64,000 nt of DNA from an uncultured Roseobacter sp. (GTDB taxonomy: Bacteria; Pseudomonadota; Alphaproteobacteria; Rhodobacterales; Rhodobacteraceae). The notes under the pieces were generated by a model, which was given only the letters and a program-made list of their open reading frames with translations, was not told where the DNA came from and made no database searches. Positions 51,882 to 54,921 of the stretch are shown piece after piece. A program made the position numbers and the translations under genes. The stretch covers positions 62,001 through 126,000 of the forward strand of contig CANKZM010000006.1 of the NCBI GenBank assembly GCA_947488305.1, written 5' to 3'. Each line of letters begins with the position of its first letter. Position 1 is the first letter of the stretch.

Positions 51882-52331
51882 TCAGAGGACGCCGATTTCA
51901 GCCAATGCGCGGTTCAGCTCAATCGGAAGAGGGTCTTCGCTGGCCCGGCCTTTTGGCAGATCAGGCGGCGCATCTGAAAAGGCGAGGTACCGCCACCCCT
52001 GGAAGGGGCGCTTGAGGCTGGACTGGGTCCTGACAACCTCCGGATTCAGCACGATGGCACAGCGCCGTATGCCGTCCTGTCCAATGTACTCGTCCAGCCG
52101 TTCGACGCGCTGGCGGCATTGGATTGACCCTTTGATCACCCAGAAAATTGAGCCGCCATTCAGTACCTCTGCCTCTCGCCGGGGCCACATGCGGGTGACA
52201 TGGCGCGGCAATCCGTCAGGAGCCTGCGCGCGTTTTGTAGCCTGCCAGGCCGCCAGATCGTCGACGGATTCCGTGCCGACAGACAGTTTTATCAGATGGA
52301 CTGAATTGCGACTTTGATTCTTTGTGCTCAT
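51882..52331 (-). CDS. DUF1489 family protein
   Basis: The 149-residue protein matches the DUF1489 family of alphaproteobacteria as I recall it: LIKLSVGTESVDDLAAWQ, GSIFWVIKGSIQCRQRV and HVTRMWPRR are conserved-looking stretches. Function is unknown. The start is the ATG at 52331; upstream frames run into the nrdJ promoter region. It is divergent from nrdJ across 85 bases. Confidence 0.8.
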   Translation of the reverse strand: MSTKNQSRNSVHLIKLSVGTESVDDLAAWQATKRAQAPDGLPRHVTRMWPRREAEVLNGGSIFWVIKGSIQCRQRVERLDEYIGQDGIRRCAIVLNPEVVRTQSSLKRPFQGWRYLAFSDAPPDLPKGRASEDPLPIELNRALAEIGVL

Positions 52332-52377
52332 GCCGTATATTGTAGTTCCGTTTTTCAAACCCTCAATGGTTAGTGTT

Positions 52378-52401
52378 TTCTCCACAAACGCCTGTGGACA
52401 A
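52378..52401. promoter_or_regulatory. inverted repeat with DnaA-box-like arms upstream of nrdJ
   Basis: TCCACA (52381-52386) and TGTGGA (52393-52398) are exact reverse complements with six bases between. Extended outward the arms read TTCTCCACA on the plus strand and TTGTCCACA on the minus strand, each one base from the consensus DnaA box TTATCCACA. The repeat ends 18 bases before the nrdJ start codon. It could be a DnaA site or the operator for the helix-turn-helix inside NrdJ; binding is inferred. Confidence 0.5.
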
Positions 52402-52416
52402 AATGGACAGGAGACA

Positions 52417-54921
52417 ATGCCAGTGTCAGCCTTTGCAGCGCCTATCGCCGAACAGATCTGGGATATGAAGTATCGTTTCAAGGATGCCGAGGGTGACCCG
52501 ATTGACCATTCGGTGGAAGACACCTGGCGCCGGATCGCACGGGATCTGGCGCGGGTCGAGAAAGAGCCAGAAGTTTGGGAAGACAGGTTCTATGAAGCGC
52601 TGGAAGGTTTCAAATATCTTCCGGCCGGGCGGATTACAGCGGGCGCTGGCACAGCGCGATCCGTTACGTTGTTCAATTGCTTTGTAATGGGCACGGTCCC
52701 CGACAGCATGGGCGGCATTTTCGACATGTTGAAGGAAGCGGCTCTGACCATGCAGCAGGGCGGGGGGATAGGTTACGACTTCTCGACCATTCGACCGAAG
52801 GGGGCAGATGTGAAAGGCGTTGCGGCGGATGCGTCAGGGCCTTTGTCTTTCATGGATGTCTGGGATGCCATGTGCCGCACCATCATGTCGGCTGGCAGCC
52901 GTCGCGGGGCGATGATGGCGACGATGCGGTGCGATCATCCGGATGTCGAAGATTTCATCGCCGCAAAATCTGATCCCGCCCGATTGCGCATGTTCAACAT
53001 GTCCGTGCTGGTGACGGATGCTTTTATGGAAGCGGTCAAATCGGACGCTTCGTGGGAGTTGAAGTTTGGCGATAAAACCTATCGCACGGTGCAGGCGCGG
53101 GACCTATGGAACAAGATCATGCAGGCAACCTACGACTATGCGGAGCCTGGCGTCATTTTCATTGATCGGATCAATCAGGCCAACAACCTGAGCTATTGTG
53201 AAACGATTGCGGCAACCAACCCTTGTGGGGAACAGCCATTGCCGCCCTATGGTGCGTGTCTGTTGGGGTCCATCAATCTCGCGCGGTTGGTGACGGATCC
53301 TTTTGAATCTGGCGCGGCGCTCAATGAGGCAGCCTTGAACGAGCTTGTCGCCACGGCGGTTCGGATGATGGACAACGTGGTGGACGCATCGAAGTTTCCG
53401 CTGGACGAACAGGCACGCGAAGCCAAAGCGAAGCGCCGGATCGGGCTTGGCGTGACAGGTCTGGCAGATGCGCTTTTGATGGTTGGGCTGCGTTATGGTT
53501 CAGACGAGGCGGCGCATCAGACCGACAGCTGGTTGCGCGCCATCGCCCGCGCCGCGTACCTGGCGTCTGTGCAATTGGCGAAGGAGAAGGGCGCTTTTCC
53601 GCTGTTTGATGCTGATGCCTTCCTGGCCTCGGGGACCATGCAGGCGATGGACGAGGATGTGCGTGAAGCGGTGCGCAAACACGGCATTCGCAACGCGCTG
53701 CTGACCTCCATCGCGCCAACGGGCACCATCAGTCTTTATGCCGGTAATGTGTCATCAGGGATCGAGCCGGTCTTTGCTTATGCCTACACGCGGAAAGTCC
53801 TGCAGAAGGACGGGTCGCGCACCGAAGAGGAGGTTGTCGATTATGCTGTTCAGCTTTGGCGCGAGAAATTCGGCGACAAGGAGCTTCCCGACTACTTCGT
53901 GAATGCGCAGACACTGGCACCTCTGGAGCACGTCAAGATGCAGGCGGCGGCACAGAAGTGGGTGGATTCGTCGATTTCAAAGACCATCAACTGCCCGGAG
54001 GATATCAGTTTTGAGGCCTTCAAGGATGTCTACATGGAGGCTTGGGATACGGGGTGCAAAGGCTGCACGACCTACCGGCCCAACGCGGTAACCGGGTCGG
54101 TTTTGAGTGTTTCTGAAGAACACAGCAGCGTTTCGGGCAAGTCGATTGCTGCGCGATTGGATAGTGCGCTCAAGTTGCGAAAAACAAATGCCGTGCAGGT
54201 CGCTGAACAGGCTGGCCTGTCCCGGACTTCTGTCTATGCGATTATCAAAGAAGAAGTTAAGTCACCCAGATTCGATACTCTCCAAAAAATCGCGAAAGTG
54301 CTCGACCTGTCGGTGACGAAGCTTACTGGTGAGGAGACTGCTCCGGAAGTCATCACCAACGACGCCGCCGAGCCGCAGCAGCCCCATGGCGATGTGATCT
54401 ACATGTCAGAGCCATTAGACCGACCGTCGGAGTTGGAGGGCAACACCTACAAGGTGAAATGGCCCGACAGCGAGCATGCGCTCTACATCACGATCAACGA
54501 TATCGTGCTGAACGGGCATCGCAGGCCGTTTGAGGTCTTCATCAACTCCAAGAACATGGAACATTTCGCCTGGACCGTCGCCCTGACCCGGATGATTTCG
54601 GCGGTTTTCCGACGGGGCGGGGATGTCTCTTTTGTCGTTGAGGAGCTCAAGGCGGTTTTTGACCCGCGCGGTGGTGCGTGGATGCAGGGCAAATATATTC
54701 CGTCAATCCTTGCGGCGATCGGTGGCGTGATTGAACAGCATATGATTGCAACCGGCTTTATCGCTGGCGAGGGCATGGGCCTCAAGTCGGACCCGCAAGC
54801 TGAGGTTGTTGGTTTGGAAAACCAACGTGGCCAAGCGTGCTCAAGCTGTGGGCAGTATGACTTGCGTATGATTGAAGGCTGCATGACCTGTGGGTCTTGC
54901 GGCTATTCAAAGTGCGGTTGA
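52417..54921 (+). CDS. nrdJ: adenosylcobalamin-dependent ribonucleotide reductase (class II) with an internal XRE helix-turn-helix domain
   Basis: NrdJ reduces ribonucleotides to deoxyribonucleotides using a B12 radical. The 834-residue protein has the catalytic barrel with LFNCFVMGTV, AATNPCGEQPLPPYGAC, SIAPTGTISLYAG and GCKGCTTYRPNAVTGS. It also has a C-terminal TSCPD-like domain (RPSELEGNTYKVKWP) and a cysteine-rich tail (CSSCGQ, CMTCGSCGYSKCG) that likely passes reducing power. There is no N-terminal ATP-cone. Residues 575-638 (54139-54330), in the linker, form a complete XRE helix-turn-helix (NAVQVAEQAGLSRTSVYAI, SPRFDTLQKIAKVLDLSVTK). By my count this insert is about 50% GC, against about 58% just upstream. 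The start follows an AGGAGA site. Confidence 0.93.
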   Translation: MPVSAFAAPIAEQIWDMKYRFKDAEGDPIDHSVEDTWRRIARDLARVEKEPEVWEDRFYEALEGFKYLPAGRITAGAGTARSVTLFNCFVMGTVPDSMGGIFDMLKEAALTMQQGGGIGYDFSTIRPKGADVKGVAADASGPLSFMDVWDAMCRTIMSAGSRRGAMMATMRCDHPDVEDFIAAKSDPARLRMFNMSVLVTDAFMEAVKSDASWELKFGDKTYRTVQARDLWNKIMQATYDYAEPGVIFIDRINQANNLSYCETIAATNPCGEQPLPPYGACLLGSINLARLVTDPFESGAALNEAALNELVATAVRMMDNVVDASKFPLDEQAREAKAKRRIGLGVTGLADALLMVGLRYGSDEAAHQTDSWLRAIARAAYLASVQLAKEKGAFPLFDADAFLASGTMQAMDEDVREAVRKHGIRNALLTSIAPTGTISLYAGNVSSGIEPVFAYAYTRKVLQKDGSRTEEEVVDYAVQLWREKFGDKELPDYFVNAQTLAPLEHVKMQAAAQKWVDSSISKTINCPEDISFEAFKDVYMEAWDTGCKGCTTYRPNAVTGSVLSVSEEHSSVSGKSIAARLDSALKLRKTNAVQVAEQAGLSRTSVYAIIKEEVKSPRFDTLQKIAKVLDLSVTKLTGEETAPEVITNDAAEPQQPHGDVIYMSEPLDRPSELEGNTYKVKWPDSEHALYITINDIVLNGHRRPFEVFINSKNMEHFAWTVALTRMISAVFRRGGDVSFVVEELKAVFDPRGGAWMQGKYIPSILAAIGGVIEQHMIATGFIAGEGMGLKSDPQAEVVGLENQRGQACSSCGQYDLRMIEGCMTCGSCGYSKCG

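Follow-up and report, generated by a model that had tools for sequence, protein, structure and literature searches.

The nrdJ gene of an uncultured Roseobacter sp. (Rhodobacteraceae) encodes a class II, adenosylcobalamin-dependent ribonucleotide reductase (RNR) and was found to carry an XRE helix-turn-helix (HTH) domain inserted between the catalytic barrel and the TSCPD/zinc tail. The gene lies in a 64,000-nucleotide stretch of contig CANKZM010000006.1 (assembly GCA_947488305.1, positions 62,001 to 126,000), referred to below as the window; compared genomes, contigs, and loci are designated by G, C, and L numbers. Comparison of genes across the family showed many changes, at a single syntenic locus, in the presence, absence, and type of the XRE module, independent of the enzyme around it. 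As judged by these comparisons, the inserts are not inherited together with the enzyme as one domain. To our knowledge, the exchangeable domain of phage-repressor type that these genes appear to hold is a real, repeated, and undescribed feature of class II RNR.

Inserted XRE domain of the window gene

The 834 amino acid (aa) frame of the window gene was verified to be open and continuous, as originally predicted. Its TIGR02504 score was 598.8 bits (cut-off 399.95), and Ribonuc_red_lgN was assigned to residues 10–81 by Pfam. The domain order was an all-alpha domain, the barrel, the XRE helix-turn-helix, TSCPD, and a cysteine-rich tail. No ATP-cone was found among the Pfam matches at E ≤ 1, which agrees with the earlier remark that none was visible. 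Judging from these matches, the frame encodes a complete class II ribonucleotide reductase, for which cobalamin-dependent activity is predicted.

The insert was matched by HTH_26 at residues 580–633 (E 1.5e-8, 35.2 bits, cut-off 22) and by HTH_3 at residues 584–635 (31 bits, cut-off 23). Both matches are over the Pfam cut-off and bear out the full XRE helix-turn-helix that the original prediction placed between the barrel and the TSCPD/zinc tail. PHROG families of transcriptional regulators and repressors were also matched, and the match to phage_RstR (NCBIfam) was under its cut-off. The G+C content, estimated earlier as about 50% in the insert and about 58% upstream, was measured at 0.51 for the insert against 0.59 for the barrel stretch upstream of it. 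Since 47 further family genomes hold an insert at the same place, misassembly was ruled out. The predicted in-frame insertion of a Cro/CI-type XRE domain in NrdJ was thereby confirmed as genuine at the sequence level, and the observation is larger than first noted.

Distribution of the insert

A profile built from 33 insert-bearing linkers (A2) was used to search 394 family genomes representing 393 genera. The gene was matched in 355 of the 394 genomes, and the match extended across the insert in at least 45. G346, G009, and G118 gave partial profile matches, and the insert was present on reading the linker. Carriers of an insert at the same position therefore number at least 48 of the 355 gene-bearing family genomes, window included. 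The frame of G184 (L107) terminates within the linker and is outside the 48 carriers. The comparison of homologues proposed with the original prediction thus found the insert in a minority, not in the whole clade; for the DNA-contact residues that were also in question, it provided a list of presumed residues at presumed positions.

The gene region was matched in 152 of the 385 genomes of a class sample, and 147 of the 152 belonged to other families. No insert-spanning match was found in the 147 gene-bearing genomes of other families among the matches listed, and inserts too unlike the profile would escape this search. The window genome was the sole insert-bearer of the class sample among the matches listed.

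The fetched flank included the DUF1489-family neighbour in 42 of 48 carriers and in 42 of 45 insert-less loci. Since this neighbour is common to both, nrdJ with and without the insert represents one syntenic locus. The slot was not occupied by any other domain in the 44 insert-less genes read or in 12 more in the genus.

Within the window's genus, 19 species were sampled and the gene was found in 18, with the insert in five and without it in 13. The 13 insert-less genes had a clean empty site, and the five inserts were of four types, L208 and L209 being the sole type-sharing pair (63%). Flanking DNA (300 bp per side) was 80–89% identical among the five carriers, and the barrels of genes with different or empty cassettes were 87–96% identical. 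L207 and L209 were 96% identical in the barrel, 96% in the tail, and 21% in the insert.

A phage-borne origin of insert-bearing nrdJ was considered and rejected, four phage genes (L055, L056, L057, and L061) being without XRE by eye. These were the four phage nrdJ genes read out of 3623 phage records with a match. In L055 (Synechococcus virus S-ESS1), NrdJ shared 55% identity with the window protein across 99% of the length, lacked XRE by eye, and was annotated as a misc_feature plus a CDS. The plasmid or chromid genes L058, L060, L062, and L063 showed no XRE by eye, and L059 gave no linker.

The assembly of G180 contained both an insert-bearing and an insert-less nrdJ gene (L020 and L130; contigs C223 and C147). 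The insert-less one was almost identical to L110 (G249) on the 93-gene tree described below. The pair represents either a second allele or contamination (2% estimated). Three broken frames were also observed. In L040 (G009) the tail motifs that follow the insert are read in another frame; in L096 (G119) the start and the tail motifs are in a different frame from the middle; and in L107 the stretch after the stop in the linker contained none of the sought tail motifs. These frames reflect either decay or sequencing errors. L101 (G116) has a run of Gly-Glu repeats after the XRE domain, and the tether also varies by simple repeats.

Exchange of the insert

Among 46 carriers, barrels (last 250 aa) and tails each had a median pairwise identity of 0.83, versus 0.29 for the inserts. 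The Spearman coefficient between enzyme and insert similarity was 0.03 (p = 0.36). L011 and L028, for example, were 92% identical in the barrel, 93% in the tail, and 18% in the insert. HTH_3 matched 45 of the 48 inserts at E ≤ 0.01; phrog_8 and phrog_4, which are phage regulator/repressor families, matched 44 and 42, and phage_RstR matched 33. At an alignment score of at least 120, the 49 XRE units formed five recurring types (A–E) and eight singletons. G118 had a tandem pair of XRE domains of unlike type.

The types were placed on a tree of the carriers' enzymes, which contained 46 of the 48 carriers (without L040 and L103) and had strong support on 10 of 43 branches. The changes of types A, B, D, and E equaled those of shuffled labels. 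Type C was mildly clustered, with 3 changes versus 4.8 for shuffled labels (as low in 8 of 500 shuffles). The presence or absence of the insert required 19 changes on a 93-gene tree, and at least 9 of these changes were forced by strongly supported branches. That tree held 93 of the 98 parsed genes, sampled at about half with and half without the insert. Of the five genes not used, three were the phage genes L055, L056, and L061, and two (L103 and L128) had no N-terminal motif that could be located; L096 and L108, in which this motif is likewise missing, were retained. The trees were quick ones, with strong support on 17 of 90 branches of the 93-gene tree. Unrelated modules are accordingly found between conserved flanks at one site, as in a specificity cassette.

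Origin and selection of the inserts

The inserts were compared with 53 stand-alone XRE entries of 14 family genomes. The nearest relative was another NrdJ insert for 44 of the 49 XRE units, and a stand-alone XRE scored equal or higher for the other five. The stand-alone sample comprised 53 of 55 loci (L146 and L158 were dropped as misread); it held the best-scoring XREs of these 14 genomes only, and at least two genes were entered twice (L145/L192 and L149/L200). A single-insert search of 129 genomes gave three matches, all NrdJ frames. Another gave seven, namely four NrdJ frames and three stand-alone genes at 41–44%. The genus insert L208 was searched in 248 genomes and gave only two matches, both stand-alone at 36–40%.

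For the window insert, the genome-contig scan gave one match (36%) and the viral scan two (34%). No silent cassette was found, since the second-best match in its own genome was 37% identical and no close copy was present in the genus. When 11 type-B inserts were scanned against viral sequences, seven matches at 35–61% over short stretches were obtained; by eye, two of them (L226 and L228) were XRE proteins whose tail resembles S24. Among the other genus inserts, L207 was closest to type B inserts, and L208 scored about equally with inserts and stand-alone genes (81 and 76). For L209 and L210, a stand-alone XRE outscored all 48 other inserts; the pattern fits fresh captures.

The G+C content at third codon positions (GC3) was 0.62 for the insert versus 0.83 for barrel and tail; 44 of 48 genes had a lower value in the insert than in the barrel (p = 4e-9). 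Together with the slot being empty in most relatives, this supports the separate origin of the insert that had been proposed from its G+C content. The ratio of nonsynonymous to synonymous change (dN/dS) within types was 0.09–0.32 in the five of 10 pairs that had finite dS; in the other five, the insert was saturated for synonymous change. In nine of the 10 same-type pairs the insert had a higher proportion of synonymous differences than the barrel, and in the tenth the two were equal. In L012/L094, dS was 2.98 in the insert versus 0.59 in the barrel. These estimates showed that the inserts are under purifying selection within types. Purifying selection and the excess of synonymous divergence together suggest, therefore, that the modules are maintained as proteins and have an independent history.

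Possible role of the insert

The reading that we prefer, and to which we give about an even chance, is that the NrdJ tether has a permissive slot for an exchangeable XRE module of phage-repressor type that would serve lineage-specific DNA targeting and not repression of its own promoter. The slot would lie between the catalytic barrel and the TSCPD/zinc tail. Modules would pass between nrdJ alleles via homologous recombination in the conserved flanks, and new XRE domains would be captured occasionally. The NrdJ dimer would bear a pair of DNA-binding heads with specificity by lineage. Their role, well short of proof, would be binding to variable operators of foreign or mobile elements or to lineage-specific host sites.

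Two features of the inserts bear on DNA binding. By eye, the recognition helices appear canonical in many types, among them A, B, and E. The mean net charge of types A, B, D, and E is mildly positive, that of stand-alone XREs being +1.2.

Other results weigh against the preferred reading. The five types were jointly slightly clustered on the enzyme tree, with 20 changes versus a mean of 22.6 for shuffled labels (12 of 200 shuffles were as low). The right-flank DNA was not detectably more alike within a type (permutation p = 0.31), and exchange by recombination is therefore only inferred. No donor gene was found in the genus, where the window insert had no match above 38% elsewhere. Identity to XRE proteins of phage records was only about 31–42%, and some of these are annotated as hypothetical. 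Insert-less linkers were also low in GC3 (0.68 versus 0.75, 44 genes), so part of the low GC3 of inserts may belong to linkers as such. Type C is acidic, with a mean net charge of −4, and has proline, alanine, or acidic residues at the first positions that we presume to contact DNA. Within-type conservation at these positions was lower than elsewhere in five of six groups (type E was split in two, L013 was added to A, and L100 and L102 were excluded from B). Because these positions show no excess of conservation within types, a shared target for each type is unsupported; the pattern fits either a changing specificity or absent DNA binding. The single-sequence models of the whole protein and of the insert placed helices in the HTH region but were poor, with a mean predicted local distance difference test (pLDDT) of 38.8 and 63.9, and gave no significant Foldseek match. 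No clear upstream element tracked the insert or its type among 46 carriers and 41 others.

Some of these results favour a structural or assembly domain, in which the XRE fold would not bind DNA but would tune how the enzyme oligomerises, how stable it is, or how its cysteine tail swings, the sequence being free to vary. This alternative is less likely than the preferred reading but deserves consideration. XRE-like domains exist in solved phosphonate enzymes (HEPD, HppE, and methylphosphonate synthase), the slot sits in the tether bearing the reducing cysteines, and the acidic type C and the unconserved contact positions are in its favour. However, most relatives do without the insert: 307 of the 355 family genomes had no insert-spanning match among the matches listed, and 13 of 18 genes in the genus lack it. 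A structural spacer also leaves unexplained why the domain is nearly always XRE, no other domain having been found in the 44 and 12 insert-less genes, and the canonical-looking helices of types A, B, and E do not favour it.

The preferred reading includes a narrower version, in which binding to mobile-element operators would make NrdJ a surrogate, SOS-insensitive repressor. In this captured immunity, phage-type repressor heads on the NrdJ dimer would act against invading or resident mobile DNA and would be exchanged between species via nrdJ recombination. It would account for heads that are nearly always XRE, often different, and often absent. It is a rather doubtful proposal at present.

A trigger enzyme with autoregulation is unlikely. 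The XRE domain would then bind its own or other nrd promoters and couple the enzyme level or the deoxynucleoside triphosphate (dNTP) state to transcription. The union of an enzyme and a DNA-binding repressor in a single chain has precedents (NadR, PutA, and BirA), and the inverted repeat that the original prediction had noted before the gene is present. Its tie to the insert did not hold, however: the same repeat precedes the insert-less L038 (same genus) and L113 by eye, and it is therefore not insert-specific. DnaA-like patterns were found upstream of 18 of 46 carriers and 14 of 41 others, NrdR box-1-like patterns of 13 of 46 and 16 of 41, and box-2-like patterns of 14 of 46 and 13 of 41. 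Perfect 7+7 palindromes were equally frequent, with 0.087 per 150 bp with the insert and 0.098 without it.

Some upstream 8-mers were commoner in one type (C, 3/5 versus 1/83; D, 3/6 versus 2/82; E, 3/6 versus 2/82), which would favour autoregulation. They were counted without a significance test, were GC-rich or partly overlapped the DnaA-like element, and none was operator-like; they may be due to chance. NrdR was found in 80 of 80 genomes searched (45 carriers and 35 non-carriers), which counts against autoregulation and also led us to reject the insert as a substitute for missing NrdR. Autoregulation via the upstream inverted repeat was rejected as unsupported, and the originally suggested binding of NrdJ to its own promoter was not supported, given the repeat shared with insert-less genes and the similar rates of DnaA- and NrdR-like patterns with and without the insert. 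An own-promoter operator may exist, but no clear candidate is visible in the upstream sequence.

Descent from a single ancestral insert, weakly constrained, very rapidly diverging, and lost many times but never swapped, is very unlikely. The nearest relationship of 44 of 49 units to other NrdJ inserts would also be expected from one origin, but enzymes 92/93% identical in barrel and tail had inserts only 18% identical, and genes of the same genus differed in type. Two types occurred in tandem in G118, and four of the five types were random on the tree. The dS of L012/L094 (2.98 in the insert and 0.59 in the barrel) and the closer relation of two of the four new genus inserts (L209 and L210) to a stand-alone XRE than to the 48 inserts also argue against it. 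Neutral scars, left by repeated illegitimate insertion of prophage or mobile-element DNA in a tolerant linker, would suit the low GC3 of inserts, the commonness of XRE genes in mobile elements, and the three fetched genes with broken frames (L040, L096, and L107), but are highly improbable given the purifying selection within types, the nearly constant in-frame XRE domain, and the precise empty sites.

Comparison with known systems

No description of an HTH in NrdJ was found in literature listings and the starts of abstracts, largely without subscription papers; the original prediction had likewise known of no such enzyme. Class II NrdJ with IscU-like and zinc-finger tails is described in the part of a survey of RNR insertions that was available (PMC9669993). 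The window protein resembles these enzymes, as far as that part describes them, in the barrel, the NPCGE motif, TSCPD, and the cysteine tail; TSCPD is here taken to be the IscU-like domain of the survey, in which the name TSCPD is absent. It differs from those described there in having an exchangeable XRE domain between the barrel and TSCPD. The words HTH, XRE, and DNA-binding are missing from the main text of the survey.

The trigger enzymes NadR, PutA, and BirA are alike in having an enzyme and a DNA-binding domain in one chain. The match of the insert to the NadR model was far below cut-off (E 0.0098–0.016). The DNA-binding domain is a fixed part of NadR, PutA, and BirA, whereas here the domain is found in a minority and in unrelated types, and binding to the own promoter was not supported.

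The DNA-binding domain of the insert is of the same kind as that of the phage CI, RstR, and S24 repressors. The nearest stand-alone relatives of type A (L144 and L192) were XRE proteins with an S24-looking tail by eye. In NrdJ, however, the HTH is followed by TSCPD and not by an S24 or oligomerisation domain, the identity is about 31–42%, and the locus retains its ordinary neighbour gene. Since TSCPD and the cysteine tail come after the HTH, the window NrdJ does not qualify as a CI repressor, though it might act in a similar way.

Exchange of specificity domains is known for the target domains of HsdS in type I restriction and for the mosaicism of phage immunity regions. These systems likewise have unrelated recognition modules between conserved flanks at one site. 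The present case differs in that the carrier is a housekeeping enzyme and that no silent cassette was found for the window insert. The insert profile also found the phosphonate enzymes HEPD, HppE, and methylphosphonate synthase. HEPD and HppE are similar in having an XRE-like domain within a metabolic enzyme and differ in enzyme class; we know of no presence/absence polymorphism or type exchange in them.

Features of the locus and other NrdJ-like frames

The features of the locus are listed in Table 1. The name of the NrdR-box-like half is one that we assume. Among the carriers, NPCGE was present in 47 of 48 and the Cys-tail pattern in 46 of 48; the misses were in L103 (gene at a contig edge) and in the broken frames L040 and L096.

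Table 1. Coordinates of nrdJ, its domains, and adjacent features in the window
Feature	Position	Strand	Basis
Divergent DUF1489-family neighbour	51882..52331	-	Flank comparison; name from annotation of matched loci
NrdR-box-like half (GTATATTGTAG)	52335..52345	.	Pattern scan
Inverted repeat TCCACA-6-TGTGGA before the ribosome site	52381..52398	.	Sequence
nrdJ, class II (adenosylcobalamin-dependent) ribonucleotide reductase with XRE insert, 834 aa	52417..54921	+	Continuous frame, Pfam, TIGR02504
Catalytic barrel, Ribonuc_red_lgC, residues 87–553, with NPCGE finger-loop motif	52675..54075	+	Pfam, E 4.9e-130
Inserted cassette, about residues 568–641	54118..54339	+	Missing from empty-site genes of the genus (L211–L223); G+C 0.51
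XRE/Cro-CI helix-turn-helix, HTH_26 match, residues 580–633	54154..54315	+	Pfam, PHROG; NCBIfam phage_RstR below cut-off
TSCPD tail domain, residues 678–776	54448..54744	+	Pfam
Cysteine-rich C-terminal zinc/redox tail	54838..54918	+	Sequence; pattern retained in 46/48 carriers

A second RNR-like frame of 1230 aa was observed on another contig of the same genome (G000:C3 294028–296250, L002–L005), with 32–45% identity in pieces. Ten genus genomes (G394, G397, G400, G401, G403–G407, and G409) had an extra NrdJ-like frame of about 576–616 aa with an internal stop in the matched stretch. Plasmid matches to the window NrdJ were found in Ruegeria (84.8%), Paracoccus, and Cereibacter.

Significance

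The XRE module adds a kind of RNR insertion that is not named in the available part of the published survey (PMC9669993). Whatever its role, a replaceable and selected XRE module at one site of NrdJ is a natural experiment. Should the cassettes bind DNA, a central enzyme of dNTP synthesis would be physically addressed to particular DNA sites, and the address would differ between close relatives. Such DNA addressing, if true, would be a new link of dNTP supply to gene control, replication, or mobile DNA.

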